Source: Liolophura sinensis (Eukaryota > Mollusca > Polyplacophora > Chitonida > Chitonidae). From it: a stretch of 64,000 nt of DNA. Position numbers and translations under genes: made by a program. Each line of letters opens with the position of its first letter. The stretch's first letter is position 1. The DNA lies in the NCBI RefSeq assembly GCF_032854445.1, contig NC_088300.1, forward strand, positions 40,576,458-40,640,457. Reading direction: 5' to 3'. The notes below the pieces were generated by a model that worked only from the letters and a program-made list of their open reading frames with translations, was not told where the DNA came from and did no database searches. Below, piece after piece: positions 16,301 through 39,400 of the stretch.

Positions 16301-19300
16301 ATGCCTTGGATGCTGTGACCATTATTGGGCTGTTTAAAAGTTCACCTCTAAGCCAACGAGACATGAACTAATATAAACAAAAACCTCCCCACCAATAACA
16401 TGGATCTGAAAATTCTAGTGTGGCCATGTGTTCCTGTCAGTCCATTAAGATTGCCATCTTTTCCATCATATACAATTATCCCACTAAGAGTTTAGCATAC
16501 ATACATTCATTTGTTAATTTATATCACACATTCATACTTTTGCCTTAATCTGTGGATTTACTCTGTCGACTTCTTCCATAAAAAATTATTTGATTTGATG
16601 ATCTGTATGTGTTTGGAATTAATAAGTTTTTGTAGTCTTTTTGCGTTAATATATTTTTCTTCAGATTTAATTGTGGAGTTTACAATGAGTCACATGATGA
16701 AAAACTTCCCCATGGACCTGTACTTGTAAGTTTTTCAACACATAGGCTTCTTTTGTATTCTGATTTTTTTATATTCAAGATTTTTCTTTATATCTTTTAA
16801 TAAATCAGTCATGCCTTTCACCAAAATAATTAAGTTGCATGTAGCAATTATTTGAGTTATTGTGCTGGATATTTATTTAGAACTTAAAAGAATTTTTTTA
16901 ATGAAATAAATATGGCATATTGAATTGGATTATCAGGAAAGCCACGGCAAGCAATAATGATTAATATTCATCAGTCATCCGGTGAAATTTATAGTGCACA
17001 TCAGTTGTACATTCTCAGACATTACATTGATACTGTTTCAGACGGTGCTTAGGTATAACACATAGGGTTTTGTGTTATCAGAAAAGATGTCGTGTTCGTC
17101 TGAATTATGCCTGGAAAGAGCTCTGGACAGGTAGTTTTAATTTGTCTGTTTGCATTGACTACCAGATTTTGTTTATATCTGAAACTCACAATCCAGTAGG
17201 TAAACAAAACTTGTGTAAAGAACTGAGAGTAGCACCTGCTTATGGATCATTTAGTTCATCAATTAGGAATGTTTGTAGATTTGAGTGCTGATTGAATTAA
17301 GACTGCATTTATTGACTTTTGACCCATACCTTGTTTTACATCTTTTAGGCACAAAGGAATATTGCGCAGGTCAAGGTCATTACCTGTACAACTGTTTGTA
17401 TTTCCTTTTCTAAAAGTTGACTTCTGATTCATACCAATATATATGTTATAAATACCCTGTATTGTTTTTTTATTTTCAGCATTAATAAACTTACTGAAGT
17501 TTATTCTCTCACATGAGACTCAGTTGGTGAAGAAGCACAACATTTTCTTGCTGGCCTCTAGGGTAAGAAATTCTCATACCAGTGTATATAGTACTTGTTC
17601 ATTTGTATAACTTCAGCCAATATTTAAACTTTGTCAGACAATGTTAGTGATGACATGACAAGCATTAGGATGTAACATACTCAGCAAATCAGTCATAAGC
17701 ACATAACCAGTATTAGGTGATGGGAAGATGAGGTATGAGTAAAGACTATGGTATCAGTGAAACATTTTTCAGCCTCACTGACTGACGCCAGGGTGTATGG
17801 TCCACCCTTATTTAGCCCTCACCAGACCCACCCTCAGTCAGCTCTCAACCAGCCCACCCTCATACAACTCCCACTGGGTCCAACCTCATACAGTTCCCAC
17901 CGGACCCATCCTTATATAGCTCTCACATGGCCTGCCCTCATTCAGCTCTCACATGGCCTGCCCTCATTAATCTCTCACATTAACTTTCTACCAGCCCACG
18001 CTCATACAGCTGTCACTGGGTCCAACCTCATGTAGCCCCACAAGGACCCACCCTCTTATAGCTGTCACATGGCCTGTCGTCATTCATCTCTCACATGGCG
18101 CACCTTCAAACAGTTGGCACACAGCCTACTGTCATTAGCTGTCTACCAGCCCACGCTCATACAGCTGTCACCTGGTCCAACCTCATGTAGCTCCCACCAG
18201 ACTCACCCTCATATAGCTGTCACATGGCCTGTCGTCATTCATCTCTCACATGGCGCACCTTCAAACAGTTGGCACACAGCCTACTGTCATTAGCTGTCTA
18301 CCAGCCCACGCTCATACAGCTGTCACCTGGTCCAACCTCATGTAGCTCCCACCAGACTCACCCTCATATAGCTGTCACATGGCCTGTCGTCATTCATCTC
18401 TCACATGGCACACCTTCAAACAGTTGGCACACAGCCTACTGTCATTAGCTGTCTACCAGCCCACGCTCATACAGCTGTCACCTGGTCCAACCTCATGTAG
18501 CTCCCACCGGACCCACCCTCATAGAGCTGTCACATGGCCTGCCGTCATTCATCTCTCACATGGCACACCTTCAAACAGCTGGCACACAGCCTACTGTCAT
18601 TAACTCTCTACCAGCCCACGCTCTTACAGCTGTCACCTGGTCCAGCCTCATGTAGCTCCCACCAGACTCACCCTCATAGAGCTGTCACATGGCCTGCCGT
18701 CATTCATCTCTCACATGGCGCACCTTCAAACAGTTGGCACACAGCCTACTGTCATTAGCTGTCTACCAGCCCACGCTCATACAGCTGTCACCTGGTCCAA
18801 CCTCATGTAGCTCCCACCGGACCCACCCTCATAGAGCTGTCACATGGCCTGCCCTCATTCACCTCTCACATGGCCTGCCCTCATTAATCTCTCACATTAA
18901 CTCTCTACCAGCCCACGCTCATACAGCTGTCACCTGGTCCAACCTCATGTAGCTCCCACCAGACTCACCCTCATAGAGCTGTCACATGGCCTGCCGTCAT
19001 TCATCTCTCACATGGCGCACCTTCAAACAGTTGGCACACAGCCTACTGTCATTAACTCTCTACCAGCCCACGCTCTTACAGCTGTCACCTGGTCCAGCCT
19101 CATGTAGCTCCCACCGGACCCATCCTTATATAGCTCTAACATGACCTGCCCTCATTCAGCTCCCACATGGCCTGCCCTTATTCATCTCTCACATGGCCCA
19201 CTTTCAAACAGCTAGCACACAGTCTACCCTCATTAGCTGTCTACCAGCCCACGCTCATACAGCTGTAACACAGCACAACCTCCCACCATAATGCTGGCTG

Positions 19301-22300
19301 CCGCTGTCGTGTAAGTGAAATGTTCTTGAGTGTGGCGTAAAATATCAGTAAATCTAAAATGGCCCACCAACTCTTATACGGCCACCCTCATTAGCTCTCA
19401 CACAACCTACCCTTGTACAGCTCTCACACAGCCCATCCTTGTATACCTCTCAGAAGACCCATAAATTCCATACATTTTCAGATTTATTGCATTTAGTATG
19501 TGTACAAAAAGCTAGAATTTGACTTTTAGTTAAATGAACTGTTTATTATGTATGTTGTTCGGTTCATCTAATACTTGTATTTTGCTATCAGTGTTTCTCA
19601 CCCTACAGTGAGACCTGTAAATTTATGTTATTCCAGGTGGTAAATGTGTTTAATCTATTCATCACCTATGGGGACACTTTCCTGCCAAACCCTAACAGCT
19701 ATGATGAGCTGTATTATGAATTGATCAGGATGCATCAGGTGTTTGACAATGTTTACTCTATGGGTAAGTTAGCATCCACTCGTTAGCTCATCTACACCTA
19801 AACATACTCTCTTCTGGTTACAGTAATTTCTGTTGTTTAAAATTAAACAAACAGCCATGTAAAATTACAAACCTGAATGTCTTGAGTGTGTGGAACAGGA
19901 AACACTACCACCAGTGAAATAGTTGATATGAAAGGTGAGGTGTTCTTTTTATCTGTGGATGATCTGTTTGTATAATCTAATTATTCATTTAGGTATTTAA
20001 AGTAATTTGCAAAATTTCACACTATGGTACACATATAGAACAAAAATATGCCTTTGATTGTAATGTGTCTGTATCATTCCACAGCTTTAAGGCACACTAT
20101 GGTATACATATAGGACAAAAATATGCCTTTGACTGTAATGTGTCTATATCATTCCACAGCTTTATGGCACACTATGGTACACATATAGAACAAAAATATG
20201 CCTTTGACTGTAATGTGTCTATATCATTCCACAGCTTTAAGGCACACTATGGTACACATATAGAACAAAAATGTGCCTTTGACTGTAATGTGTCTATATC
20301 ATTCCACAGCTTTAAGGCACACTATGGTACACATATAGAACAAAAATGTGCCTTTGACTGTAATGTGTCTTCTATCATTCCACAGCTTTAAGGCACACTG
20401 TGGTACACATATAGAACAAAAATGTGCCTTTGACTGTAATGTGTCTATATCATTCCACAGCTTTAAGGCACACTATGGTACACATATAGAACAAAAATGT
20501 GCCTTTGACTGTAATGTGTCTATATCATTCCACAGCTTTAAGGCACACTATGGTACACATATAGAACAAAAATGTGCCTTTGACTGTAATGTGTCTATAT
20601 CATTCCACAGCTTTAAGGCACACTATGGTACACATATAGAACAAAAATGTGCCTTTGACTGTAATGTGTCTATATCATTCCACAGCTTTAAGGCATACTA
20701 TGGTACACATACATGTATAGAATAAAAAATATGCCTTTGACTGTAATGTGTCTATATCATTCCACAGCTTTAAGGTACACAACTAATGATGGTCAGTGGA
20801 AGGAAGCTGCTGCCAAGATGATCAACTGTCTGGTCAACATACGGTAAGTGTATGAGTTCTAATGATTGGCAAACAATTTATTCAATAACTACATATGCAT
20901 TGTGGCAGAACCAAATTTACCCCGACTATAACAGAAAACTATCATTTTGACTAAAGCAGGTAGGTCAACTTTCATCCATTCAAGTGAAACTGAACAGAAC
21001 AGACTGAGTACCGAGTCTTTCTGAACTAGACTTAAGTTCAACACATGTTGAATGTTACAACCTTTTTTCGTGTTTTGACTTGTTTTAGAGCTATCATCAA
21101 CCACTTCATCTCTGGACCATACTCCATGTCCAGTTATACGTGCAGGTGTATATTGGTACAACCTCATTTTCTTGTTTTGACTTGTTTTAGAGCTATCATC
21201 AACCACTTGATCTCTGAACCAGACTCCATTTCCAGTTACACATGCAGGTGTTTATTGGTACAACCTCATTTTTTTGGTTTGACTTGTTTTAGAGCTATCA
21301 TCAACCACATGATCTCTGAACCATACTCCATTTCCAGTTATACATGCAGGTGTTTATTGATACAACCTCATTTTTTTGTTTTGATGTGTTTTAGAGCTAT
21401 CATCAACCACTTCATCTCTGAACCATACTCCATTTCCAGTTACACATGCAGGTGTTTATTGGTACAACCTCATTTTTTTGGTTTGACTTGTTTTAGAGCT
21501 ATCATCAACCACTTCACCCCTAAAGTGGACACCTGGGCAGCGGTGAATCACTTGTCTTCTCTGACAGAGGAACAGGTATGGTGATGTCAATTGTCTTCTT
21601 GATTTCTGTAAAGGCAGACCTAAACAGTTATTGTTCTGTTTATTTCTGTTTAATGGGTATATTTTGAAGAGCTATGGAGAGCTTAAGTTATCCAGTTGTC
21701 ACTTTCATTAAATCAACGTCCAAAGATATGTATATCATGGCATATATGTGTCCATGTACACGTACAGTGATTAAACACTGAAACATACAAAGGAGCGAAG
21801 AGGCTGTGGCTCTTGAGGATGTGCACATCATAGAGTATCCACATCATAGAGTATCCACATCATAGAGTATCCCATGTCTTGTTATTTTTAGGACAGATAA
21901 TAATAGTGCTGAAAGCCATTATATTTCTCTCCCTTTTTTTTTCTTTGAAAATTAAAGATATGAATATCTTGCTCATTAGATGGACTAACCATGTGAAAAA
22001 AAATAGAAACTACATATTCTTGCTACAATTACATGTATATAAGCTAAGAAGAGCAGACCGAGTGTCCTAAAAATTAGAAGAATGAGGATAGATGCCAGAT
22101 CATAAACTGTATTAGATTGTGCTCAGAAAGACTACTTTCTGAGGTCTGTGTTCATATTCAGCTAGTGAACACTGTAATGTACATTAAACCTGATGAGCCT
22201 TAACATTTCTAGATATGTGTATGTTTCTTTCCTACTAGTCACAAACGATAAATGGTAGCTATATTTAATAAATGCTAGTTATGTATAATAAATGCTAGCC

Positions 22301-23192
22301 ATGTACATGTGTAATAAATCCCGGCCATATATAATAAAATGCTAGCCATTTCTGATAAATTACCAAAGTAATACCCAATACTAAGTTTCCAGTTTTGTGT
22401 GATTCTGCAAGATCTGTTGATCTTGGTCAGAAAATTGTTTTGAGGTTTGTTTTGACTCCAATTCTGATTAGAGCGTGGTAATGTTGTATGTGAAAATTGA
22501 TGATGACATTTCTGTGTTGTAATTCTGATTATGGTGTGGTAGTGTCATATGTCAGAGTTGATGTTGATGTGCTTCCCCTGAAGGTGCTGGAGGTTGTGAG
22601 GAGTAACTATGACACTCTGACCCTCAAGCTACAGGACAGCCTGGATCAATTTGAGAGATACTCAGAGACTCCAAGGGAGACCAGCTTCTTCACACAGCTA
22701 GTGAGATACACACGTTGCTATCTACCTTTCTTGAAATGAAAACAAGAAAAGTTTTCATACCCAAAAACTTACAGAGTAAAATGCACATGTACATATGCAT
22801 TACAAAGTCTTTCACCTTCTAATAAGTTTTTAATTAATTCATTAAATGTAATAAAAATGTTTTTCGGGATTTGATCGCTTTACTACATGTAGTTAAAAGA
22901 AGTAAAGTGTAATACATCTGCAGGTTATGTTGAAATGAAATGGAAGGTAGGATGAACAGTAGTGAGTATGGACTAATATGTTGTGGTTTGGAAGCAGCCG
23001 TTTTGGCTGTTAGCAACTTAGAGCTAAGGCATATGGATAAATAGCACCTGTTTGATTTGGAATTGCGTTTTTTTTATTGTTTGTTTTTTTTTGTTACAGG
23101 TGCGTTCCATTATCTCAGATGTGAAGAAGTCTGTAGGAAATTATAGTGTACAGCCTCAAGATATGCTGCTGGAGCTGACAACCATGTCCTAG
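4325..23192 (+). CDS. ARMH3: Armadillo-like helical domain-containing protein 3 (ARMH3/C10orf76), complete, 26 coding exons
   Basis: Coding exons: 4325-4447, 4923-4979, 5294-5359, 5525-5605, 6599-6706, 7162-7255, 7548-7622, 8600-8686, 9251-9307, 9804-9847, 12434-12494, 13447-13493, 13804-13879, 14456-14531, 14943-15050, 15540-15598, 15797-15862, 16161-16230, 16665-16725, 17042-17130, 17480-17562, 19637-19763, 20768-20843, 21497-21575, 22584-22700, 23100-23192. The predicted protein is about 692 residues (human about 689) and is alignable end to end, with [47 protein letters not shown] and [13 protein letters not shown]. The family is a Golgi-associated helical-repeat protein that works with GBF1 and PI4KB in Golgi PI4P supply. 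Exon 6 is 94 nt where 93 is expected, giving an in-frame TAA at about 7217. Exons 23 and 24 have tandemly multiplied acceptors. Intron 10 (9848-12433) shows nothing recognisable. Confidence 0.95.
4529..4613 (+). repeat. SINE family I fragment (head region)
   Basis: GGAGCCTCTCAACAATGCGG followed by GCTGTGAGTT and a TCCTCTCC block matches the head of the full copies at 8757 and 55077. The rest of the element is missing. It lies in ARMH3 intron 1. Confidence 0.6.
5831..6015 (+). mobile_element. SINE family I copy, internally deleted
   Basis: It has the tRNA-like head CATGGCTCATGTGGTTAGCA (A-box-like) and the complete 3' tail TGAAATATTCTTGAGTACGG, ending in ACACCAATCAACTGAATCAA. The middle part with the B-box-like CTGTGAGTTCAAGTC is deleted compared with the 55077 copy. 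It lies in ARMH3 intron 4. Confidence 0.7.
7900..8100 (-). repeat. possible interspersed repeat in ARMH3 intron 7
   Basis: A stretch with GTAGACACAATATTGTCAG and ACTGCACTGATTTTGATGAA resembles a motif I associate with invertebrate interspersed repeats. There is no second copy in this window to confirm it. The minus-strand 75-codon open frame here is not credible as a gene. Confidence 0.25.
8757..9021 (+). mobile_element. SINE family I, near full length
   Basis: The head (CATGGCTCAGACAATTAGCC) resembles a tRNA A box, and CTGTGAGTACAAGTCCAGCT a degenerate B box. The body has GGTTTCCTCCCACCATAATG and the tail TGAAATATTCTTGAGTACGG, followed by (AAAT)n. The flanks TTGTCTAGTC (left) and TTGCCTAGCC (right) look like a decayed target-site duplication. 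It lies in ARMH3 intron 8. Confidence 0.75.
9394..9651 (+). repeat. 22-bp minisatellite in ARMH3 intron 9
   Basis: About a dozen tandem copies of TGTGTAATAGGGTTTGTATT plus GG, with A/G and T/G variants (GTGTGATAGGG, GGGTGTGTATT). The array starts some 85 bp after the exon 9 donor. The long minus-strand open frame over it is a product of the repeat. Confidence 0.9.
9848..12433 (+). other. large ARMH3 intron 10, no recognisable content
   Basis: The 2.6-kb intron splits the codon for one arginine between 9804-9847 and 12434-12494. I checked both strands for exons, tRNA boxes and the repeat families seen elsewhere in the window and found none. Only short low-complexity stretches are visible, such as the G-rich run near 11905. 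Confidence 0.5.
17820..19275 (+). repeat. 155-bp minisatellite in ARMH3 intron 21
   Basis: Units begin with CACATGGCCTG and repeat exactly every 155 bp (starts near 18067, 18222, 18377, 18532, 18687), with more diverged units on both sides. Each unit carries CTCATACAGCTGTCACCTGG and CAAACAGTTGGCACACAGCC, and seems itself built from a shorter 20-30 bp theme of CCCTCATACAGCTCTCAC type. Unlike the next two arrays, it contains no exon or splice-site sequence. The open frames of 74 codons in each unit simply reflect the repeat. Confidence 0.9.
19277..19350 (+). repeat. SINE family I 3'-end fragment
   Basis: CCTCCCACCATAATGCTGGC followed by GTGAAATGTTCTTGAGTGTG and GCGTAAAATATCAGTAAAT is the tail of SINE family I. 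It lies directly at the right border of the 155-bp array in ARMH3 intron 21. Confidence 0.65.
20019..20780 (+). repeat. 75-bp tandem array spanning the acceptor of ARMH3 exon 23
   Basis: Ten copies of TCATTCCACAG|CTTTAAGG occur, with AG ending at 20084, 20159, 20234, 20309, 20385, 20460, 20535, 20610, 20685 and 20767. Only the last is followed by the conserved exon ([14 protein letters not shown]). Each unit includes the polypyrimidine/AG region plus about 13 exon-like bases, then about 60 intronic bases. Splicing to any upstream copy would read ALRHTMVHI and then stop at TAG within the same unit. The array arose by duplication across the intron-exon border. Confidence 0.92.
21061..21510 (+). 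repeat. 102-bp tandem array spanning the acceptor of ARMH3 exon 24, in frame
   Basis: Five copies of TTTTAG|AGCTATCATCAACC occur at an exact 102-bp period, with AG ending at 21088, 21190, 21292, 21394 and 21496. The last leads into the conserved exon ([19 protein letters not shown]). The unit is 34 codons, and the whole array is free of stops in the ARMH3 frame. Each unit would encode a peptide of the type [19 protein letters not shown] followed by [15 protein letters not shown]. Human ARMH3 has no such insert, so 21496 is taken as the ancestral acceptor, but the upstream ones are equally good by eye. Confidence 0.92.
21823..21872 (+). repeat. 16-bp direct repeat, three copies
   Basis: ACATCATAGAGTATCC is present three times in a row in ARMH3 intron 24. 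No function is suggested by the sequence. Confidence 0.7.
22240..22360 (+). repeat. degenerate short tandem repeat in ARMH3 intron 24
   Basis: Variants of AATAAATGCTAGCCATGTAT recur about five times with substitutions and small indels. The copies are too diverged to be a recent expansion. Confidence 0.55.
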
Positions 23193-23194
23193 AC

Positions 23195-23550
23195 GTACCT
23201 CTGTGGCACTGGGCATAGCGGTGACTCCAAGTGCAGCTGAGACACAGAGCACAGCTGAGGCATAGGGTGTAGCTGTGGCACTGGGTGTAGCTGAGGCACT
23301 GAGTGCATCTGTGGCACTGGGAGTAGCTGTGGCATTTGGTGCACTGGGTGTGGCTGTGGCACTGAATGCACTGGGCATAGCTGTGGCACTGGCTGGAGCT
23401 GTGGCATTTGGTGCTCTTGTGGCACTGGGTGTACCTGAAGTACTCAGTGCATCTGTGACACTGGGAGTAGCTGTGACATTTGGTGCACTTGTGGCACTGA
23501 GTGCATCTGTGACATTGGGTGCGGAGTTGGCAGCCAGTGCCTCTGTAACT
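23195..23550 (+). repeat. 18-bp minisatellite in the ARMH3 3' UTR
   Basis: It begins within a few bases of the ARMH3 stop codon (23190-23192) and is made of variants of GTAGCTGTGGCACTGGGT, with CATTTGGTGCACTG interruptions. The array is open on the minus strand for 197 codons (Cys/Gln/His-rich), which follows from its composition. It should be transcribed as the start of the 3' UTR. Confidence 0.85.
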
Positions 23551-26500
23551 TAACCCTGTAGCATCAAAACTGTGTAACTGACACAGTGGACCTGTCTGAC
23601 AGCCCAGCTGTGTGATACTTTCCTGTGGATGAGTGTCTAAAACCATGTAGCTCAGAGAGCAATATAAACTCTGATACCTCTCGCCGATTGACTCAGTGTA
23701 CATCGTGACATGAGAAAATTCAAGCTTGATAGAATGTGCCCCAGAGATAGCCCTGAATGACTACACAAGTCTCTTTCATATTTTTACTGACACCTGCATA
23801 GTCATGAATCATTTCCCTTAACCCCAGTAGGATGAATTATAAAATTTTGGAAAACAGTTGATTACTAACCTACCATTCCCGGCCAGTGACTTCTTTAAAA
23901 TGCTTAGGGTCCTTGGGCACTTCACTGTTAAAATCTGGAGATGTCGATCATCCCAAAGGTAAATATCCATCCATAATTATTATAGTCCAACCTCGCTGCT
24001 TGCTTGTCATTTACAAAATGGCCGCCATCTACATGGCGCGTATTGTGGTGAAGGGGACTGAGCCGTGAATATGCAAACGTCAGTACAAATATAAAAGAGC
24101 GTAGCGTAGTCATTCAGGGCTACTCCAGAGGGCAATGTCTGTCTGCATATCCATTGTTAGTCTACACACCGGTTTGAGTGATGATGATTCGTACCAGCTA
24201 GTCTTGTATTATTAGCTGGTTATAATTTCTGGGGTTGTAAAGAAGATGTTACAGTTTTTGATTGTTATTCTCATGACTCATAGCTTCATGTACTGACACC
24301 AACATAATGACTAATGATTATACATGTACCTGTGGATTTATTCGTGGAAATCACAAGAAATACATTTGTATTTAAAAAGTTCACAACACACCTGGTTGTT
24401 TAAAATTACATCAAATTAGTGTGCTCTTTAGCTCTAACTGTTTCAGTGATGGCATGTGGCGTGTATTTTCCTGAAAGGCTTGATTTTGAAGTTCAGTAGT
24501 TCATGGGGAAACTACTGTTCAAGTGTCTCAGATAGAAGCAATCAGTAGTTCAGAATTAGCATTTCTGTTTTCATTATTACAATTTTTGATACTCAACTAG
24601 CAAAGAGCATCTGTTCATCTCACAAATGAATAGGCTAACCTGCAGGTGTTGTGGTGAGATACTAGTACTGTACTACAGTAAAAATCATATTGATTAACCA
24701 TTATGGTCAGATTTTGCATACATGTAGTTTGGTAGTATAGTCATGCATAATGTATGAAGATGTCACATAGGATAATGTTACAACATTGGCCTTGGTGAAA
24801 GAGCTTCATGCTTTGAGAAAAAAATGATCAGTGCAATATTCATTAAGTTCAGTACAGTTATTTTGTGCACTGAACCATACACTGTCTGGCTTGTGTTGGT
24901 ACTGTAGTGCCGTGTGTTTTAAGTGTAAGTTTATGAGTATTTAGCTGAAAAGAGAAGAATTATTGGCATTTGGGACTTCCCCCTATTGACCTGATCGATA
25001 ACTGCTTGAATGCATGAGCACTCAAAAATGTTCAACATCCAATGCCTACAATGGCACGAATTCCCATTTTCACAAACATTTCCCGTGTTTTATCACGTTT
25101 CTATTTCGCTCTTAACCATCACTATCATCGACATAGCATTGTGCATGGCTGTGAACTTTTTGTTCTCAAATGACATTACATTAAGAGTGACGTTACATTA
25201 AGAAGGACGTTACATAATTTTCCATCAGCCATCAAAATAAGTATCATCAGGTAATTTTTGTTATGTGCTTGTATCATAGATGTACATATTTAAGAAATAT
25301 TGTTCCTACTATGGGTGTCTATTGGCAGTTTTATAGTCAATAAGGTCGATGAGGTTAAAAATATGTAGGTGTCAGGCTACGCCTTTGACCTAAAATAATA
25401 ACCTCGTTCACCTTATTGACTGTGAAAACTGCTGAACATTATTTCTATTCTATAACCCTCCCCAAAACATTTAACATGGTCCATCAAAGTAAAGCTGGAA
25501 GATCCCGGCATGGTTATATTCTAAATAGTGCGTGGCCTGCAACACCAAGCAAAACCATTGCTTCCAAATAAAAGGGGTACCAACCTCTGAACAGGTATCA
25601 AACTGATCACAAATGCCACTGTTGAAATAATCTGTGAGCTTTTTTGAAGGGTGAAAGAGTAGTAGGCATTCTGTGGAGGGGGGGGGGGGATACTTTTAAA
25701 ATGTGGAGAGCTGGTGATCATAGTGTATGAACTATGATATGTACATCTGTGGCCTGTATAAATGTTATCTAGGTGTATTTCAGTACATGCTTTATACTAA
25801 TATCGTTTATACTAATGTCTAAAATGTCGTTATCTGTACTCGATAAATATTTATTCATATCATTGGTGTTTTAAGGCTGTGTCCAAGAATTAACAGTTAA
25901 GTTTTGAGTGGAATGGAGAAGAACAGAGTGCCTGGAAAGAACTGGAGGTTGCAATCTCCTATGTACCGTACCTGTGAAACTTTCAATTTAAAACCTTGGT
26001 AAAGGGCCCGACAGTAGCAACAAACTAGCACAAACTGTCTAAGCCAGCGTTTTGACTGTCTAAGTAAATGGTTAGGACTACATTTAGCTAGAAACAAATT
26101 TTATTCCCACAGTTACACGGATTTTTTTGTTATAGATTAACTTTTTTTTTTTTTTTGTTTTTTTTTTTTGTTTTTTTGTCACTTTAAAAGAATGTGACCA
26201 AATGGGTTTTGTTTTACTTGAAACTGGTGCTAAAATCAAACATAAAATAGTCTTTCCCAGTCATGCCAGTACCACACATTTATAGCAAGGAGAAGATGAT
26301 ATAGTTACATTGTAAATGAGATGTGTATTCCTAAATGTGAACAAAATTTACTGGTATGGTATATTGTCAAGTCGCTGAAGGACCAGAGTGTTTTTCTGTT
26401 CAGTCCATCTACTTGGACTTCAGTTGTACAGTGGGGATATACAGTAAGTGTATGGATAGTTAAGTGTACAGTTGTTTTATAAAGGTAATGTTAATACATG

Positions 26501-27379
26501 CAGGTGTGTGTCTGTACATAATACATGTACATTAATAAATGAAAGGACACTACCACTGCAGGGATTGTAGATATGTGAATTCACCTCAGTCAGCCATCGG
26601 TGACTTTCACACATGGGAGTGTATTTCCTAGATGCTAATAAATAATTAAAACATAGAATTGGTGTCTTTGTTCTGCACTGTACCAGTATGTAAGATTAAA
26701 TTGATACATATTATGTGATGTGGAACATGTACAGGCCTGTTTAGTGCCATTTCTGCTGTTGACATATATTGTTGTGCACACAAAATCTTTATGTTGTGGT
26801 CTTGAGATATTTGTTATGTTGTCTCATAAAGATGTCATTTGCACAAGGTCTTCATTAAGTCGCTTTAGAATGTCATGCAGACAAAAAGTTCTTTGTCGAG
26901 ACCTCGAGATTTTCACTTATTGAGTTGTGTTTTAAGAGGTTCACCCTCTGTTGCCTGCATAGTGTAATCATCCGATAGTAATGCAGAATTCTTGCGTTCA
27001 CAAATTCCCCCTTCAGTCGTGCTCCCGAGAGGCTTGTAGGCCAGGATATTAGGCCTATGGGAAGAATATAGGATGTTGTGTACACAACATAATTCTGCAT
27101 TTCCACTGGTTAACTATTCTGTGGCTACGACTAAATTTTAAAAAGAAAAATGTACATGAAATATTTTGGTTGGCATCGTACCGGGTCTTATTTTGTATCA
27201 GTTCAAGTTACAAGATTTTTTTTTTTAGCCACACGATCTGCTTTCACAGAATTAGAAAAATATTACTTCATGGGTTAAAATATTAATTTTTGTGTGCTGA
27301 GAATACATGGGCAAGCATGAAAGTGTACCGAGTAGGTAGGTTGGTTGATGTAAAACAGGACTATCGCAAGTACCTTTCC
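23551..27379. other. ARMH3 3' UTR and intergenic region
   Basis: I see no coding exon of a recognisable protein here. Contents: a TATA-like stretch (AAATATAAAAGAGCG near 24090) without a gene behind it, a long imperfect palindrome at 25293-25448, a G run near 25680, a T-rich run at 26126-26176, and several ATTAAT/AATAAA strings that could be poly(A) signals but cannot be ranked by eye. Confidence 0.5.
25293..25448. repeat. long imperfect palindrome (hairpin or foldback element)
   Basis: The arm GTCAATAAGGTCGATGAGGT on the left pairs with ACCTCGTTCACCTTATTGAC on the right. GCAGTTTT pairs with AAAACTGC outside it, TAGGTGTCAGGC with GCCTTTGACCTA near the centre, and AGAAATATTGTTC with GAACATTATTTCT at the outside, where the left arm has a 19-bp insertion. 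The centre is near 25379. It could be an extruding hairpin, a foldback MITE, or the source of a structured RNA; nothing in the sequence decides between these. Confidence 0.75.
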
Positions 27380-27471
27380 GCCGAAGTCAAACAGCTGAAG
27401 CCATGGGGCTTATCTACTAGGCTAGTCTACTGTGGCCAAACAGATCATGTGACCAATTTTTTTTAGAGAAA
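27380..27471 (+). promoter_or_regulatory. putative ILVBL promoter and 5' UTR
   Basis: The stretch just before the ILVBL ATG has CATGTGACCAAT, which overlaps an E-box-like CATGTG and a CCAAT box, followed by a T run. No acceptor precedes the ATG closely enough to demand a separate UTR exon, so the first exon may start here. The start site is inferred only. Confidence 0.35.
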
Positions 27472-30400
27472 ATGGCGGCCGGTCACACCATGGAAGACGT
27501 GCAGGCGATGCTGAAGAAATATGTTCTTCCAGTCGGTTTGTCAGCAGCTGCCTTTGGAGTTTTAATAGTGCTAAAGCGTCTTGGAATAATATATCAGCTA
27601 TTCCATAAGGTGATTCTCCTCACAACGATGTGATCCGCCTATCAGCGTTAAATAGAAAAGTGGGGACATCCTGTGATAATCCTAACTTAGCTCCGTTGTA
27701 TTTTAACGTCATGATATCGCTCGCCTTATATGACTACAATCATGCCTATTCTGTGGCATATAGATGTAGTTGTCACACAATCACTGTAACTGTGCCACGG
27801 CTGTCAGTGACCGTATCCACGATCAGCTTTGTCATCCTGAATTTCGAATTTCAACATGGCATGATGGAATTGTTCCAGTTGAAGTTCTTGAAAAATGACT
27901 CGGAAAGCAGGGTGGAATACAAGGCATTTGTTATACAAATTACAGCAAACTCTAAACAAAGCCCATATTATGAGAACATTGCCTAGTAAACTTAAATATT
28001 TGAGAAAAAAATACTATCTGCATTATGCACTAACAAGTGTGATGAGTATGTTAGACACTCTAATTTGGTATATAAGACATTTAAGTGCAGGTTTCTAAAT
28101 AATTGAAAATGTTTTAGCCCAAAATAAAAAAAACTGCAGCTCTGGAAAGATTTCAAAGGAATGAGCCAATGAATTCGGTAAAATCAAAGATGGACATCTG
28201 ATCAGTTAAGCCACATACCTGTAAGTATGTAAATAGAGGTGATAGGGAATGAGACTGACACAAGTCGAGTTGGCACTTTGGGTTCACTAGTTCATGCAGG
28301 TTTGGATGAGACACTATGGGGGCTCTCATGAACTATCATGGCTAAAAGATATCTTTTTGCAACAGCTGCTAGTGGCGCCGTTGGGCCAACAGATGCAGCT
28401 ATGCGAGATGTGTATTCAGTCAAGCAAGTACCATAAAATCTCGTATTTTAGCTGGGTTAGTTTGCAAGAGCCCCTCTCTGTCTCGTCCATATGTGCGTGA
28501 ACTCACGGAACCCTTGAGATGCCGACACAGCTTAATATAAAATGTGCACCACATTCTGTGACACAAAAATAAACAGTAGATCCAGGGTTCACTCCAGAAC
28601 TGAGTTACATCGAAAAATTTCAGTAATCGATAATTGGTGAACTACCTGGTTTGGCCTCAAGTGTAAGAGAAATGGATCAAGATCTGGTCTTCAGCATGGC
28701 ATTGCAGTGAGGGAGAACTGTTAATATATCGGTATTGGATCTGGCCTGTTACAAGCAGATACTAATGTGATACAACCAAAATAATGTTGAAAACGAGATT
28801 ATGCCCCAATAAAAACAACAAACAAGCCTTTTGGACTTATTAGCTTTTTTACTCAGACAATACATACATCAGCAGATATACTGAACATCAAAATATGATT
28901 ACATAAATTTGGCACAATTTCATATTAAAATTAAGGTGAAATCAGCATAAATATTAGGTGTGCTCATTTCAGATGATGATTTATGTTAGCAGTATATAGG
29001 TAAAGTAAGTCCGCAAATAAGTTAAGCAGTAGCTGCACAAGTTGTCTGAGTTTGGTAGTTTATTGCATTTACTCCTGGTTTGTGGACAAATTTCATGCAC
29101 TCAGTGAAGAGGACCGGCCCCGATAGTACAGTTGGTAGAGCATCCGCTTCGGGGGCAGTAGATCAGGGTCAATCCTGGGCCGATTCACACCTAAGACTTT
29201 AAAAGAGGAAGTTGTAACTTGCTCGCTTGGCGTTCAGCGTGGAGGGGAAAGTGCAAGGACTGGTTGACCCGTATCAGAATAATGGCTCGGGCAGGGCGGC
29301 TTACTTGCCTTCGGGAGGCGTCTCAGTGAAGCAGCACTAGATAAAAGAGCAGTGGAAATCCGTCCTGCAGCATGGAGATACATGACATGCACTCTAAGGA
29401 TTCCTTCGTCGTCATATGACTGAAATATTGTTAAGAACGACATTAAACCCCAAGCGCTCACTCACTCACTCAGTGAAGCGGTATATGGTATGGTTTGGTG
29501 GTAAGATTCATAACTCCCAACTATAATAGGTTTCTTTCTAATGAGGTAGGCCAACAACCAAACAATGTGTGGATTTTATTAAGTTTACAGGTAAGAAGAG
29601 TCAGAGTTTAACTTTAATGAAGAGCTTCTCACTTCAGCGGGATCTTCGCTTTCGCTGGATTAAAAAATAGCATTGGTATGGCTAGATTTAATGTTAGCCC
29701 TAGAATATCCTAGTCCCTGTTTTTCTTCACCCATCATACTGACCACCATCTTAAAAGGTTAAAATTCTTAGGTATGGCATTAAGGAACAATCAGTTAAAT
29801 AAATAAATACTCAGTGAAGAACTGTTTGTATCCATGTATATTCTATTCCATTAATGGTTATTTTTTTTTCCAGGTAGATACAAATTCAAAAAAACATGGA
29901 GGAGAAATTGTTGCTGATGTTTTAAAAGTAAGAAAGTGAAGTATTCTGAGTTGAATCATCAATTACAAGTTTACAGTTGCAAGTTACAAGTTTTATTCTA
30001 TGAACACAGTTACAGAATCCGTTTAGCAAAAGATCTTTTTTTTTTAAACAAAATACTTCTGTAATGTAAAGAAAGTTCTGCAATAAACGCAGTTATTTTA
30101 TACCCAATTCCTCAACATTTACACATGCGAAAAAGCAACTTTCAGTGCAATTTATGTACATATTTAAGTAGATGTTTGAGACAGAACTACATTGGGTTGA
30201 TCAACCAGTTTCAGGGCTTCACAAAAAGCATAATTTTATCAGCCTATACTGAATAATGCCTTCAAAATATACTTAAATAAAACACCTTGCAAACGTGCAA
30301 AAAGGCTTGAAGTGTGTGAAATCTGGGATTTAGTATAGTAAACCAAGTTAAATATGTGTGTGTACTTGTTTTAAGTCATATTCTCTTGTTGCAGGCGCAT

Positions 30401-33400
30401 GGTGTGAAGAATATTTTCACTCTTGTTGGAGGTCACATATCACCTATTTTGGTAGCCTGTGAAAAACTTGGAATTAGAGTTGTTGACACGAGACATGAGG
30501 TTAGTAATAAAAATGGGAGTCTTACGTACCATAAATCATAATATTTCATAACTAGTTGATCTGTTCTACAGATCATTATATTACAGGTACATCATTACAT
30601 TAAATTTTTTTAGTACCTTTAATTAAGATAAAATTATTATTGTTCAAGCGCTGAAAATTCACAAATACTACTCCAGTTTTTAACCAACAACCTCCACGTC
30701 AGGAACATAATCACAGGCAAAGCATGTCAGAGCATTTCATCAACTGGACTCTCACAAAAATAGGAGGAGAATGTGGTGTCAAAGAGGCCATACCAGAGAT
30801 ATTTGGCAAAATAATCAAGCAGTGCTTTTCTAATCAAATTTTTGCTATTATTTTAGGATAGCCCAAATAATTACCTTTGACAGAATATCAGCATCTTTTG
30901 TGCACACATGTATGCTACCATTTACAATCGGAAATGAAGTTTCTAAAACTCATAGGGTGGGTCGCGATTATTTTAACACTAAAAGTAGTGATATTTAGTG
31001 AAAGTCAATCATTTAAGCCATTCTTGGTAAATACAGAAAATTTATTTTCTGTCGTAATTTTTTGTTTATCACTGGTGTCTTTTTTATCTGCTCAATTTAC
31101 CACATAAACAACCAAATGCTTCCACACATATTTTTTTTTAGGCGACAGCGGTATTTGCTGCAGATGCCGTGGCGCGCTTGTCTGGGACCGTGGGAATTGC
31201 TGCCGTCACAGCAGGGCCAGGTATTAAATCTACCATTCACATCTCTTAAGTTCCTAGCAGGGTGGAACATCTTTATCACATTGTGAACAAGTGTTTAGCC
31301 ATTGGACATTACAACAGTTTGCAAACAATAGCCAATATATGGAAACTGTTGTAGATCCCCATTTGAGAGTGATCAGCTGTAGGTAATGGTATTCATTTCT
31401 GTTACTGTTAATGAGCACTACCTAAGGCTGACCTGTATTACATTGTGCGGCCGAGGTTCCTTTGTTTATTAAAGTTATTACTTTGTTTGATCTGGTCTTC
31501 AGGTCTGACGAACACGGTGACAGCTGTGAAGAATGCCCAGATGGCCGAGTCACCTGTCCTGGTTATGGGGGGAGCTGCTGCAACCCTTCTCAAGGTTTAA
31601 CATTACATTCATATTCATATTGGAGTGTAATATATACATACATTTTGGATTGAGCGTATGAAGGCTATATTGTCATGCCTAAGAATAACCAGTTGACAGA
31701 GAATTTACTACTCTCGGGTATCCAAATGGATACAGGTGAAAACACTTCACAGGTATTTTAATCTTCAGGTATCGGATACGTATACCTGTTGAAGCGCTAT
31801 ACTGCCACCTTTGTTCAACAGCGGAAGAGGAAATGGTTAGACAAAAAATCAGCTATCCATAGTAAAATATGTATTTGGGAACAGAACCTTTTGCTGACTT
31901 TCTCAAGGGAACGAAAATAGGTCTATAAGAAAACACTTGCGTGTCATCGGCAACAGTCAAGTGAATTACATTCGCTGACGGCTTTGTGGTCTTCTCATGG
32001 CACGCCATAGGAGTGGTAATTCCATAATATCTCACATGTGGTTGACGTTCAGGCGGTACAAAAAGAAAAAACTCGCAATCACAGCGTCAATTTTTGTCAT
32101 TTTAAAAGTACCTGGCACTTCATACTTCTACTTCACTCAACAGTTAGCTTTCAAAACAACGTTTTTGTCCATCTTTGTGTGCTGAGCTCTTCTGTAGATT
32201 GGAATGCTTATATAACGTTGTGATATATATTTACAATAGACGTCAGCGGGATTGATGTACCAAGTTAGGTCAATCAGGTAGATGGTGAGTAGCTCGAAGC
32301 AGACTTTATTTTCCAATTCGACTGAGATATTCTGAGAAAATATCGAATAAAGGTCAGTGTCAATGGTTGCAAAAGGCGTATAATTGCCTTAGGCAGGCTA
32401 TGTATTAAGTGGATTTGGATATGAAGTATTGCGTTTACAGCGAGATTTGCCGATGGGGTAGCTGTTTAGAGGTACAATGTCACAGTCAGGGGTAAATGTT
32501 GTCTGGGCTAAGGATGGCAGCGATATCCACGTATCACTAACTACAAGCCATCCTTAGACCAGATTTTCAGAAATTGTATTTCGAGAGAGAGCGTCCGTCA
32601 CCTATATAAACAGAGTGACATTTCAAACGATGGGGGAAGAAAAAAAATATTAAATGAAATAAAATAAAATAATTTGGCATCGGTAAAAACACGAAAAAAG
32701 AATTACGGTCGGGGCCTTGTTGAAGGGTGTAACATCAGTCAAAAAATATCATATAATATAATAATATAATAGTTTAATTTTGGCCTTGTCAGGCAATATT
32801 TTGATCCTTGACATTGCCAGTAACAATTTTAATGTTATTTTAAATTTTGACTTAAGACTAAGATCACAGACTACAGGATCCTGGGGCCGGATCCTGTACC
32901 TGAAGGGGACATGTTTGTGTTTGTCAGGGCAGAGGAGCACTTCAGGACATTGACCAGATGTCCCTGTTTAAACCTCTGTGTAAGTTCTGTGCGACTGTGA
33001 ATAGTGTGAGAGAGATCGGCCCCACAGTGAGGAAGGCCCTACAGGCGGCCCAGTCAGGGACACCTGGTAAGTCACACATCATTATCAGAAAAATTTACCT
33101 CACTAGGAGTTGGCAAATACGACTTTTCTCCTTTTCAAATTCAAGTAATTGGTACAATTAATTGATCTTGATGTGAAATATTCCAGCCCTTGATGAGTTC
33201 TTGGTGTAGAGTTTAAAAAGTAATCTCTGATTTTTGAAAGTAGTATGTCGTCTATATATGATTGGTCTGCGTATACTGATTAAATTAAATTTTTGTGAAT
33301 AAACATTATGTATTCATATATATTGTTCTGTGAGTAGTAAACTTTTTTGTTTACCTGATCATATGCAGGCCCGGTCTTTGTGGAGTTCCCCATAGATGTT

Positions 33401-36400
33401 CTGTACCCATACAGTATTGTGAAGAAGGAGATCGGGATGAAGGATGGAGGCCCTACAAGTCTGGGTCAAAAGGTCATTAACTGGTAAGGTCAGAGGTCAG
33501 GCCAAAATCCCAAGCAAACTAAAATCTGTTACATATACAGTTTCTATAATCAGTAGTTATAAATGCTGTTAATAAGAACTTGTGCATTTTTGCTTCTTCT
33601 AAATGCTGTAAGAGGCCACCACTTATTGTTCTCATTGTGCAAATTGTTGAGTTTGGTTATATTAAACATTTACTCTGAGTTGATATCTTGAAGGTCCTTG
33701 TCAGTCTAGCATTCTAGAGTGATATACTTTAGGACAGTCTCATTTCACTACTTGTCTTGGCTATGAGTTTACATTGTGCAGTTTATTTTATGCCTCATCT
33801 GCTAGGTGCAATGATTTTCTACCATATATATATATACCCTAAATGATCTTAAAATTTTACCCACAAAAGTGCATTTTTAGAGGCAAATAAGTGCTCAAAA
33901 TATTCATTTTGGTGCTGAAACTTTAAACTTTACAGTGGAGTATTATCCCATCTTCAAAGCCAACCTCAAAAGACCTTTCTAAAATCAATAGAACTCTCAG
34001 AATCAGGAAAAATGGGCAAGTCTGTCATGGGTGAAATTTATGTCTGCATTCTTCACCATTACACTTATACTATGCAAAAATTTAAAAAACGAAATTAATA
34101 CCTTCAGGTACCTACAAAACCACCTGAACAATTTGTTTGCTGGTGCATTTGAAGCGCGGGACACTCAACCCCTGCCTGTGGAACTCCCCTTAGCCAGCCG
34201 CTCCCAAGGTAAGATGAGAAAGACGGGTTGAGATTAATTCAATGTTCCAGAGGCACAAATGACACCCCTTTCCTTTCAGAACTTCTCAAGTTCACAAACA
34301 TTCAAGTCCTTAGTTTTCTCCATTTACATTGTAAATACTTTTTGTGAATCTTTTTTCAGATCAGTTCACAGATCACATGATACATAAGGACTTTTGAAAA
34401 AGAGTTTGAACTTGAAACTCTCGTATTACTTGTGACAGGGGACTATCCTTGACCAGTAGTGCTTCTCGTTTACAGTTCAGAAGTGTGTAGAGTTGATCTC
34501 TAAAGCCAAGAGGCCTGTGATATTGTTAGGAAGCCAGGCTACACTACCCCCCACCCCGGCCGATGACCTCAAGGCAGCTTTAGAGGTAATGCACAGTTTA
34601 TGCCAAGTGCCTAAGCATATAAGATACCTATTCTGACATGAAATACCCAGTTCAGATAGAAAACTGTACATGTAGTTAAACATCTTGTTATGAATAGAAG
34701 TCATTAACATGGTGGCAGGTAATTCTGTTTGAAACAGTCAGAATAATGTTAAAGCAAGTGTATTTAGATGCAGTTGCTAATGGTGATGAACTCTAAATAC
34801 AAGTGTTAGTTGTCTTTTCTGTTAGATTGTACCAGTGTCAGCAGCTCCCATTCTCATCTGTCTCATCTAGAAAAAGTCATTGATTTAGAAATTTTAGGTT
34901 TTTGTTAGTTCCCCAACTAAGTTACATAAACCTCTGTAAGATTACCCTCTGTCAAAATGAAATCCACTTCAGCAATGCTAATACAATGGTTAAGCAATGT
35001 ACAGCTTTATTCAGTAGACAAAACATCTTGATTGGTCTCCCTTGATTGCTGTCTTCAGTGTCTTAACTTGCATTCTCATCTCCACAATTGAATACATATA
35101 AGGTTTTGAGAGAGTTGTATTGTAGTATAGTAGCGATAGGATTATTTTGTGGCCTCTCCCATCAACAGAGTCTGGGAATTCCATGTTTTCTGGGAGGGAT
35201 GTCCAGGGGCCTTCTGGGTAGGAAGAGCCCTATACAAGCTCGGCAGCAGCGCCGTGATGCCCTGAAGGAAGCGGATGTGGTCGTGATGGCAGGTATATAT
35301 ATTTCACTCTTGTGATTATTGTCATCATGGGTGTGGGCAGTGGTTTAGTGGTTAAAGGCGCAGTCTTTTCAGTCTGTTGCCTAAGTCACATGAGGTTTGG
35401 GTTTGTTCTCACATTTTGGGGTTGTTAAAGCAGCTAAGGATATGGTGAAGACCACTTGGCTCCTACCAATATGTTGTGCATGTCTGTGAGAAGTTTCCTG
35501 TTTCCTCCACACATAGGACTTGACCACCATCATATGATTAATACATTACTAAGTCAATAAAGACAGCATATTCTCCTCAGACTTTGTCCATTCATTTAAA
35601 CCTTACCAGCATTGTATAAGTGTAATATTCTAAGTACATAAATCACATCAGTCAGTTAAATTTAAATACATTCCTACTCAACAGTCATTTCTGGATTAGT
35701 GATGTACAAAAGAAATTCCTTAGATTATGTACAGTAAGTTGATTAAAAATTGAATCCTAAAATTTTGGAGTGTATATTTTACATGCTTCAGTCGGCTAAG
35801 GTTACAGTTAGAGTGTGCTTGAACAAAATTTTTGTTATAATAATGGGCATGCTTCAGTCATGTTTTGCCAAAAGTAACTTGGTTCAGCCATATGTTTGGA
35901 GGAATATGTACATACATGTAATTTGCCTCAGCAGACATAACAAAATATGGTACTTAACTTTACTTATTTATTTAATTGATTGGTGTTTTACACCATACTC
36001 AAGAATATTTCACTTACACAACGGCGACCAGCATTATGGTACAGTACTTAACTTGCTTCTGTCATATTCGAACTACAGTGAATGATCCTCAAAGTTTATT
36101 TACTTTTGGTATTTTTAGGTGCTGTTGCTGACTTCAGATTAGGATATGGACGTGTACTGAGTAGAAAATCCAAAATCATCGCTGTCAACAGAAATAAGGA
36201 GCAGCTTTATAAAGTGAGTCAGTCATATTCAGAAATAAATTTTAAGTAAATCTGTCCGAAAGTCAGCGGCTATGTAAAATAGATATGTGCTATGTTTAAC
36301 TGCATGTATGCAGCTCTATAAGTTGGGCTGGTTGGATGGTTGACTTTTTGATGTGCTATCTATTAGCATAGGTCATTGACTTGTCCAGGATTTATTATCA

Positions 36401-39400
36401 GATATTGCAAATTTGCAATGCGTTTTATTGTAGACAGCTTCATGGCAAATTTTGGCCTGTACTTCTGTGGTTAGCCAGTGGACTAGAGCCATTACCTTAA
36501 ATATTCCTTAGGTGTTTTTTTAGGAATGTTCTATAAATAATAAAACAGTTGTATTATTTTTCATGTTTTCAGAACTCTGACATGTTTTGGAAGCCACATG
36601 TGGCTGTCTTGGCTGATGTGGGCAGTTTTGTTGTAAGTCTGAGCAAAGGTCTGAAGGGGTACAGATGTGATCCTGACTGGCTGGCCAAATTACAGCAACG
36701 GGATGAAGACAAAGAGAGAGCTAACAGGTAAAATCATATGTTTGAAATTCAACATTTTACCCGTGTGTGAAACTAAATATTATGGAAATAAAATTTGAAA
36801 ATTGATCCTTTTTTTGCTTTACTAACAACAATGAATTTGTGTTCTTTTTTAGGGACAAGGCTAACGAAAAAACAGCTATTCATTTGAACCCTCTGAAGGT
36901 GTTGCATGTTGTGGAGGAAATGTTAGATGATGACAGTATTATAGTGGCTGATGGAGGAGACTTTGTGGGCAGTGCTGCATACATCCTCAGGTGAGTTAGT
37001 GGAGAGATCTGACATCAGGTGATACTGGATGAGGATAGTATTATAGTGGCTGATGGAGGAGACTTTGTGGGCAGTGCTGCTTACATCCTCAGGTGAGTTA
37101 GTGGAGAGATCTGACATCAGGTGATACTGGATGAGGATAGTATTATAGTGGCTGATGGAGGAGACTTTGTGGGCAGTGCTGCTTACATCCTCAGGTGAGT
37201 TAGTGGAGAGATCTGACATCAGGTGAAACTGGATGAGGATAGTATTATAGTGGCTGATGGAGGAGACTTTGTGGGCAGTGCTGCTTACATCCTCAGGTGA
37301 GTTAGTGGAGAGATCTGACATCAGGTGATACTGGATGAGGATAGTATTATAGTGGCTGATGGAGGAGACTTTGTGGGCAGTGCTGCTTACATCCTCAGGT
37401 GAGTTAGTGGAGAGATCTGACATCAGGTGATACTGGATGATGACAGTATTATAGTGGCTGATGGGGAAGACTTTGTTGGCAGTGCTGCTTACATCCTCAG
37501 GTGAGTTAGTGGAGAGATCTGACATCAAGTGATACTGGATGAGGATAGTATTATAGTGGCTGATGGAGGAGACTTTGTGGGCAGTGCTGCTTACATCCTC
37601 AGGTGAGTTAGTGGAGAGATCTGACATCAGGTGATACTGGATGATGACAGTATTATAGTGGCTGATGGGGAAGACTTTGTTGGCAGTGCTGCTTACATCC
37701 TCAGGTGAGTTAGTGGAGAGATCTGACATCAAGTGATACTGGATGAGGATAGTATTATAGTGGCTGATGGAGGAGACTTTGTTGGCAGTGCTGCTTACAT
37801 CCTCAGGTGAGTTAGTGGAGAGATCTGACATCAGGTGATACTGGATGAGGATAGAAGTATAGTGGCTGACGGGGGACTTTGTGGGCAGTGCTGCTTACAT
37901 CCTCAGGTGAGTTAGTGGAGAGATCTGACATCAAGTGATACTGGATGAGGATAGTATTATAGTGGCTGATGGAGGAGACTTTGTGGGCAGTGCTGCTTAC
38001 ATCCTCAGGTGAGTTAGTGGAGAGATCTGACATCAGGTGATACTGGATGAGGATAGAAGTATAGTGGCTGACGGGGGACTTTGTGGGCAGTGCTGCTTAC
38101 ATCCTCAGGTGAGTTAGTGGAGAGATCTGACATCAGGTGAAACTGGATGAGGATAGTATTATAGTGGCTGATGGGGAAGACTTTGTGGGCAGTGCTGCTT
38201 ACATCCTCAGGTGAGTTAGTGGAGAGATCTGACATCAGGTGAAACTGGATGAGGATAGAAGTATAGTGGCTGACGGGGGACTTTGTTGGCAGTGCTGCTT
38301 ACATCCTCAGGTGAGTTAGTGGAGAGATCTGACATCAGGTGATACTGGATGAGGATAGAAGTATAGTGGCTGATGGGGGACTTTGTGGGCAGTGCTGCTT
38401 ACATCCTCAGGTGAGTTAGTGGAGAGATCTGACATCAGGTGATACTGGATGAGGATAGAAGTATAGTGGCTGACGGGGGACTTTGTGGGCAGTGCTGCTT
38501 ACATCCTCAGGTGAGTTAGTGGAGAGATCTGACATCAGGTGATACTGGATGAGGATAGAAGTATAGTGGCTGACGGGGGACTTTGTGGGCAGTGCTGCTT
38601 ACATCCTCAGGTGAGTTAGTGGAGAGATCTGACATCAAGTAATACTGGATGAGGATAGTATTATAGTGGCTGATGGAGGAGACTTTGTGGGCAGTGCTGC
38701 TTACATCCTCAGGTGAGTTAGTGGAGAGATCTGACATCAGGTGATACTGGATGAGGATAGTATTATAGTGGCTGATGGAGGAGACTTTGTGGGCAGTGCT
38801 GCTTACATCCTCAGGTGAGTTAGTGGAGAGATCTGACATCAGGTGATACTGGATGAGGATAGTATTATAGTGGCTGATGGAGGAGACTTTGTTGGCAGTG
38901 CTGCTTACATCCTCAGGTGAGTTAGTGGAGAGATCTGACATCAGGTGATACTGGATGAGGATAGAAGTATAGTGGCTGATGGGGGACTTTGTGGGCAGTG
39001 CTGCTTACATCCTCAGGTGAGTTAGTGGAGAGATCTGACATCAGGTGATACTTGATGAGGACATTGTTATATTGGCTGATGGAGGAGACTTTGTGGGCAG
39101 TGCTGCTTACATCCATAGGTAAGTTAGTGGGTAAATACAGGAGAGATCTGACATCAGGTGATACTGAAAGAACATTGCAAATTGGTGAAATATTTGTCTA
39201 AAATATTATACCAGCTGAAGAGTGGCTGTTCACACTGAGCTTTTGTAATTTACATTTTCATATTGTGGCCACTCAATGAGAACTCATGACTATCTCACAC
39301 AATGTTATCAGTCCTGGAAGAGATCTTAAAACATCCTAACTAAATGTGCAGAATTTGCAGTGGAGAAAAGGGCTAAATAAAGATGGAGCAAACCAGGAAG

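Follow-up and report, generated by a model that had tools for sequence, protein, structure and literature searches.

Tandem arrays in which every copy carries a splice site raise the question of whether exon–intron borders are favoured sites of duplication. The question is posed by a 64,000-nucleotide stretch of the genome of the chiton Liolophura sinensis (RefSeq assembly GCF_032854445.1, NC_088300.1, positions 40,576,458–40,640,457 of the forward strand), which lies on contig C6 of our numbering and which we refer to as the window. The window holds three arrays whose unit spans an exon–intron border: arrays A and B lie at acceptors of the ARMH3 gene, and array C lies at a donor of a gene that we take to encode an ILVBL-type thiamine-pyrophosphate (TPP) enzyme. 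We found that, in one sample of exons from this genome, arrays lie across donors far more often than chance predicts, and that the acceptors of the same sample show no such excess.

Arrays at three splice borders of the window

Tandem Repeats Finder delimits array A at 20018–20780 (period 75, 10.1 copies, 96% matches), array B at 21056–21516 (period 102, 4.5 copies, 92% matches) and array C at 36926–39130 (period 102, 21.8 copies, 95% matches), and all three read on the plus strand. Reading copy by copy, we found ten acceptors in array A (20085, 20160, 20235, 20310, 20386, 20461, 20536, 20611, 20686 and 20768), of the form TTCCACAG/CTTTAAGG with the slash at the border; a single copy has CTTTATGG, and each 75-bp unit holds an acceptor TTCCACAG/CTTTA with 8 nt of exon. 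Array B has five acceptors of the form TTTTAG/AGCTATCATC (21089, 21191, 21293, 21395 and 21497), with about 20 nt of exon in each 102-bp unit. Array C has 22 donors spaced 102 or 100 bp apart, 21 of which are CTCAG/GTGAGT and the last of which is CATAG/GTAAGT. The three consensus units look mutually unrelated on reading, so that the original prediction of two acceptor arrays and one donor array, each with a border inside a unit of its own sequence, is borne out. The arrays that it had set beside them as ordinary intronic ones exist as well: Tandem Repeats Finder confirms a 22-bp array at 9393–9652, and at 17802–19198, in an ARMH3 intron, 26-bp copies combine into a higher-order unit of 155 bp that is richer in G+C than its surroundings.

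In each case the coding copy is the exon-proximal one: A and B contribute their last copy (at 20768 and 21497, respectively) and C its first, where the exon ends at 36990. In spliced reading, the ARMH3 exons at 20768–20843 and 21497–21575 begin in the last copies of A and B, and the exon upstream of array A (19637–19763) ends in ..TCTATGG/GTAAGT and lies on an open frame that matches Pfam ARMH3_C at 2.1e-19. The exons of the TPP enzyme, placed by spliced reading and Pfam (TPP_enzyme_N and TPP_enzyme_C), are at 36573–36727, at 36853–36990, where the 3' end is the first copy of array C, and at 39466–39640, after the array-bearing intron; all of these exons are on the plus strand. Exons spliced at the exon-proximal copies give continuous proteins (ARMH3_C, 3.2e-51; TPP_enzyme_C, 4.8e-20), and this continuity together with the Pfam matches indicates that the borders of all three arrays are real.

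The copies within each window array differ by scattered changes, and private changes are present in both terminal copies of C and in the last copy of A, meaning that these escape homogenisation, as judged by reading and without a tree. Tandem arrays are, as a matter of general knowledge, classic assembly traps, but an artefact of assembly or annotation is hardly credible here, given the scattered changes among copies and the recurrence of the same layout in several unrelated genes. The HiFi reads average 8,347 bp according to the accessible part of the assembly paper (PMC11068029), which exceeds the length of each window array. That part of the paper names the species Liolophura japonica, a name since corrected to Liolophura sinensis (PMC12441733).

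Donors and acceptors in a repeat-blind sample

Three such cases in 20 kb had been thought unlikely by chance, but the window was picked as odd and the three are a selected observation, and we therefore judged chance on an independent sample drawn blind to repeats. The sample was built on the Helicase_C domain, for which 76 matches were listed for the genome (112 candidates scored); 69 loci were kept. The 30 best were taken with 1.5 kb on each side, and seven of them were dropped, as an open frame of at least 300 codons reveals no splice site close by, so that 23 remained. All of the remaining 46, taken with 300 bp on each side, were kept, although several contain stops and are perhaps not a single clean exon. 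The frequencies that follow are claimed for the interval of this sample and for one assembly.

By eye, an array lies across the donor in 8 of the 69 helicase exons (95% interval 5–22%; 8 of 76 when the dropped loci are counted), three among the 23 longer loci (L037, L038 and L044) and five among the 46 shorter ones (L067, L068, L072, L081 and L097). No array was seen across an acceptor at any of the 69 loci, as judged from array coordinates and the 5' side in the 23 longer loci and from coordinates in the 46 shorter ones, with L083, L090 and L095 also read letter by letter. The difference between donors and acceptors has P = 0.006 by eye. Four further candidates for donor arrays were rejected. 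The arrays of L060 and L062 begin 14 nt and 5 nt inside the intron, respectively, and the words in L074 and L085, which like L060 had been picked by a GT-word rule, are intron words and not donors.

For an array to contain a border, its first unit must have covered that border, and the chance value is therefore the density of array units. Taken from the non-border array units of the 23 longer loci, this density predicts 0.58 donor arrays in 69 (P = 2e-7 for the eight seen), and a generous null that uses the largest periods and includes the border arrays predicts 1.36 (P = 9e-5). These values bear on the simplest alternative, in which a minisatellite-rich genome acquires arrays without preference for any site, exonic ones are purged, and border arrays are tolerated as they are spliced out. 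The genome is indeed rich in arrays, which make up 9.6% of the sequence in the 23 three-kb helicase loci, splicing at the exon-proximal site would keep the extra copies of A and C out of the protein, and the sample acceptors are without excess. A distinct-array count on contig C1, described below, is likewise not in significant excess under its strictest correction. Against this alternative stand the eight donor arrays, where 0.6–1.4 are expected if the original unit must cover the border, and donor-word triples that exceed both their backwards and their swapped controls genome-wide. We consider it unlikely.

A mechanical profile, which involves no judgement by eye, gives the same picture. It follows terminal-copy 16-mers over the 69 loci against a background of 1.5–1.7%. 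On the donor side the value is 7.8% at the border (13 of 69 loci) and 4.4% in the adjoining exon (6 of 69), and in the intron beyond the donor it is 4.6% at 50–110 nt, 2.7% at 110–200 nt and 1.6% at 200–290 nt. On the acceptor side it is 0.36% at the border (1 of 69 loci) and 0.09% in the exon (3 of 69), and in the intron before the acceptor it is 3.3%, 2.2% and 1.5% over the same three distances. Introns close to either exon end are thus moderately enriched, whereas at the borders themselves the enrichment is confined to the donor; by this profile the donor–acceptor difference has P = 0.001. The earlier claim that exon–intron borders are favoured sites of tandem duplication is supported for donors and does not hold for the acceptors of the sample.

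Donor words across the genome

The claim had also been framed as a genome-wide excess over random placement, and we examined it in a proxy form in which donor words stand in for annotated splice sites. We counted triples, defined as three copies of a word 85–115 bp apart, a measure that counts copies and not arrays. The word CAGGTRAGT forms 1504 triples against 182 for the same word backwards (single sites, 19904 and 7585), and AAGGTRAGT forms 452 against 165 (single sites, 13590 and 16666), whereas a control word with GT swapped to TG forms 229 against 203. After division by the single-site ratio, the triple excess is 3.1-fold for CAGGTRAGT and 3.4-fold for AAGGTRAGT. The acceptor word TTTTNCAGG forms 343 triples against 89 (single sites, 41825 and 25555), a 2.4-fold excess after the same correction. 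Distinct arrays were counted on C1:0–18.84 Mb, where, among the matches listed, there are at least 16 for CAGGTRAGT, 4 for AAGGTRAGT and 3 and 4 for two control words; the first number is possibly an undercount, as the matches listed hold no forward-strand CAGGTRAGT site past 12.15 Mb. Over the whole of C1 (96.4 Mb), the control words have 8 arrays each. The expected excess is thus present in the triples and is less clear in the distinct arrays.

The 16 CAGGTRAGT arrays at the start of C1 (L001–L016) were each taken with about 2 kb per side, and open frames of at least 45 codons with less than 60% of their length inside arrays were tested with Pfam, 185 on the donor-word strand and 201 on the other. 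Frames on the donor-word strand match SUFU, polycystin, SNF2, fibronectin III, fucosidase and CLC channel domains, along with weaker ones; those on the opposite strand give strong matches to Tsr1/BMS1 and photolyase and three weak ones. In six of the 16, the terminal copy is the real end or start of an exon in a gene recognised by Pfam: SUFU (L002, where a second array lies at an acceptor), an SNF2-type gene (L005), fucosidase (L009, whose own exon scores 2.7e-4, below the Pfam cut-off), CLC (L011, the gene being identified by neighbouring exons), photolyase (L015) and a Tsr1/BMS1-type gene (L016). The last two have the word on the strand opposite to the gene, at an acceptor border in L015 and at a donor border in L016. 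L010 and L014, which look coding by eye and have no Pfam match, are probably also at exon borders, and so is L013, judging from a neighbouring exon that resembles RNA polymerase Rpb1 domain 5 at 0.0024, below the cut-off.

Some further features of these loci were seen. In L013 the donor of the interior copies (GTAAGT) is better than the one at the real end of the exon (GTAAAT). Three other arrays, L017, L018 and L019 (102, 103 and 90 bp), have a unit that looks like a whole small exon with its acceptor and donor, and L018 holds another array that looks coding and has GTAAGC in its unit.

The word counts raise the alternative that the donor sequence itself, CAGGTRAGT and similar, is prone to duplication wherever it is placed, and that splicing is irrelevant. 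The raw excess is largest for CAGGTRAGT, whose distinct arrays outnumber those of AAGGTRAGT fourfold in the same stretch, the word lies in the exon part and on the opposite strand in L015 and L016, and the interior copies of L013 are closer to the donor consensus than its real donor is. However, the eight array-bearing helicase units look unrelated, their eight donors differ and CAGGTRAGT is at none of them; the AAG form has an equal triple excess per single site; and L015 and L016 are still border arrays. The diversity of the helicase donors and the equal excess per site make CAGGTRAGT alone an unlikely cause, and we regard this explanation as quite improbable.

Origin of the arrays and known relatives

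The arrays vary in their dimensions. For 14 donor arrays beyond the window, the periods given by Tandem Repeats Finder or obtained by reading range from 22 to 119 bp; these arrays are the eight helicase ones together with L002, L005, L009, L011, L013 and L016, and the units of C, L009, L010 and L081 contain inner repeats. Five of the 14 periods are multiples of three, including that of L081, which can also be read as 46. The two 102-bp units of the window, which the original prediction had pointed out as close to a multiple of three, are therefore a coincidence. The exon part of the units, by reading, runs from about 5 to roughly 70–100 nt. Since both periods and exon parts vary, the break points are spread about the donor and are not fixed exactly at it.

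If the frame is followed further than the used site, a stop appears in 8 of the 11 arrays checked (three in the window, eight from the helicase sample), namely A (after 9 codons from the first acceptor), C (an immediate in-frame TGA past donor 1), L037, L038, L044, L068, L081 and L097. The frame is open in the other three, in B from the first acceptor through all copies and in L067 and L072 as far as the letters were fetched. These three open frames would favour the idea that the arrays are kept for a function, be it as a platform of 5' splice sites where U1 recruitment would shield the transcript or reinforce the exon, or as a source of variants; B in particular could add up to four 34-residue repeats. 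With stops in the other eight, we consider a function very improbable. The stops behind the other sites of A and C are instead consistent with the earlier suggestion that such arrays are tolerated since removal of the intron hides them, although tolerance alone cannot explain an excess over introns.

Arrays of this layout have a precedent in lancelets, where the paper that first described them is reportedly that of Canestro and colleagues in 2002. The accessible parts of two lancelet papers (PMC3087553, PMC3902484) describe "mirages", minisatellite-like tandem duplications whose unit spans an intron–exon boundary, at either the 5' or the 3' boundary, with many AG or GT copies and the authentic border at one end; the genes named there are Adh3, the globins BflGb6 and BflGb9, troponin C and PGBD5. 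The chiton arrays share this organization. They are tandem and minisatellite-like (75 bp × 10.1, 102 bp × 4.5 and 102 bp × 21.8), their units span the boundary and carry the AG or GT signal, they occur at both boundaries (acceptors in A, B and L015; donors in C and L016), and by reading the terminal copies of A and C escape homogenisation. They differ in that the host is a mollusc and not a cephalochordate, that array C reaches 22 copies, and that arrays are found at about one in nine donors of a repeat-blind sample with a bias for donors over acceptors, whereas the lancelet cases are single genes. Some lancelet mirages, in the accessible parts of the papers, come with RNA and instability data, while the chiton arrays are known from sequence alone.

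We conclude that the chiton arrays are probably border-spanning minisatellites of the mirage kind, commoner at donors than elsewhere in the gene, expanded on the intron side and hidden by exon-proximal splicing. The starting event would be a short tandem duplication of about 20–120 bp across an exon–intron border, with donors affected more often than the rest of the gene, and later slippage or unequal exchange would multiply and homogenise the copies on the intron side. The spliceosome would take the exon-proximal site, which is the last acceptor or the first donor, and the remaining copies would leave with the intron, so that the protein would be unchanged. Which site is used, that splicing is correct, how the arrays expand and what causes the donor preference are points that we infer from the layout of the arrays.

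Several observations weigh against this conclusion. The introns 50–200 nt from acceptors reach up to twice the background (3.3% and 2.2%), and nearness to exons may be part of the effect. Two of the three window arrays belong to acceptors, although the sample shows no preference for such sites. The sample is a single domain family in which not every match is proved to be one clean exon, and its eight positives were assigned by eye; the GT-word rule chose ten loci, shared seven of them with the by-eye set and missed L068. The raw triple excess is unequal between the two donor words, 8.3-fold for the CAG word and 2.7-fold for the AAG word. The count of at least 16 distinct arrays differs from the controls with P = 0.0004 uncorrected but with P = 0.15, not significant, once the full single-site ratio of 2.62 is applied, a ratio that is itself inflated by array copies. 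The first fifth of C1 is rich in arrays in general, with seven of that contig's 16 control arrays, and the value of P = 7e-6 obtained from the C1-wide control average therefore overstates the case; taken alone, the distinct-array count is only suggestive. Among the 16 donor-word arrays, the word in L015 and L016 is opposite to the gene and hence not a splice site there, L004 and L012 lie within known genes (by eye) with the array not placed at a border, and five (L001, L003, L006, L007 and L008) are without an exon-border assignment.

Selection against duplications in exons cannot make borders richer than introns, and the donor excess therefore needs either a higher rate of duplication at donors or a better survival of the duplications there. 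We favour the higher rate, perhaps owing to something tied to 5' splice sites during transcription. Taken further, the 5' splice site as such may be a duplication hot spot, a reading we put forward tentatively as possible. About one in ten donors would then head a minisatellite, the density would return to background roughly 200 bp into the intron, and acceptors would mostly escape. The duplications would come from a process linked to 5' splice sites in transcribed chromatin and would in this way supply the genome with surplus splice sites from which new exons and introns could form. Candidate processes would be U1 or spliceosome loading, RNA–DNA hybrids, or a break or template switch.

Two other known systems resemble the chiton arrays in part. 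In intron gain by tandem duplication of AGGT-bearing sequence (the Rogers model, as named in the accessible part of PMC3087553, with a potato RdRp case reported in PMC4974935), a stretch bearing a splice signal is likewise duplicated in tandem, and such a gain could be a next step from the chiton arrays. That mirages can make new introns was already suggested by the authors of the lancelet globin paper, which is one of PMC3087553 and PMC3902484, in the portion available. In the AGGT model, however, an exon duplication supplies both ends of a new intron, while in the chiton the intron pre-exists and one border is multiplied. An origin of the window introns by AGGT tandem duplication was rejected, as each array lies at one end of its intron and the other end is, by reading, unrelated to it. 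Intron 3 of an abalone TSSK1-like gene also holds a tandem array in a mollusc gene, an ordinary 27-bp minisatellite that varies between individuals, and the accessible part of that paper reports no exon–intron border in the unit (PMC6905558). Among the matches listed in our literature search, which covered titles and the start of abstracts with most subscription journals outside it, we found no boundary-spanning arrays in a mollusc. As far as the searches show, the chiton arrays thus belong to a known kind, in a phylum for which we found no report, and their frequency and donor bias are new.

Mirages have so far been a lancelet curiosity from a handful of genes, in the accessible parts of the literature found. 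Their presence in a mollusc at about one in ten sampled donors makes the origin of splice-site tandem duplications testable with existing genomes and RNA reads, and makes the seeding of new introns and exons by such duplications directly testable too. Exon models near border-spanning arrays may often be wrong.

Other features of the window and of the assembly were noted. Downstream of array B, the next ARMH3 exon lies at 22584–22700, its start after AAG being read from the sequence, and the last coding exon, placed by spliced reading, lies at 23100–23192 and ends in TAG, both on the plus strand. An 18/36-bp array at 23200–23546 starts about 10–60 bp after this stop codon (23190–23192), a position probably within the 3' untranslated region. 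A dispersed repeat with TTTATTTATTTGATTGGTGTTTTACGC, which we take to be a mollusc SINE (short interspersed element), has two copies in the window, at 55120–55400 and, on the minus strand, at 40330–40620, and similar frames occur in several fetched loci. A repeated open frame with LPRLAFSMKGIVQRLVDPYQYNGSG.., probably part of a mobile element, lies at 43683–43895 of the window and at L015:3523–3732 (minus strand), with a part of it at L016:6884–7078. The mitochondrial genes, named by eye, follow the order nad3-nad2-cox1-cox2-atp6 on a single strand, with TGA read as Trp; this arrangement looked molluscan, and an initial idea that the genome was a lancelet's was rejected. The GFP family (PF01353) had 0 matches, which says little given that the controls yielded nothing either. 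Elsewhere in the assembly, COX1 occurs seven times in C99 (108,685 bp) at steps of about 15.5 kb and once in C632 (15,209 bp), and the mitochondrial genome seems to have been assembled as a head-to-tail chain.

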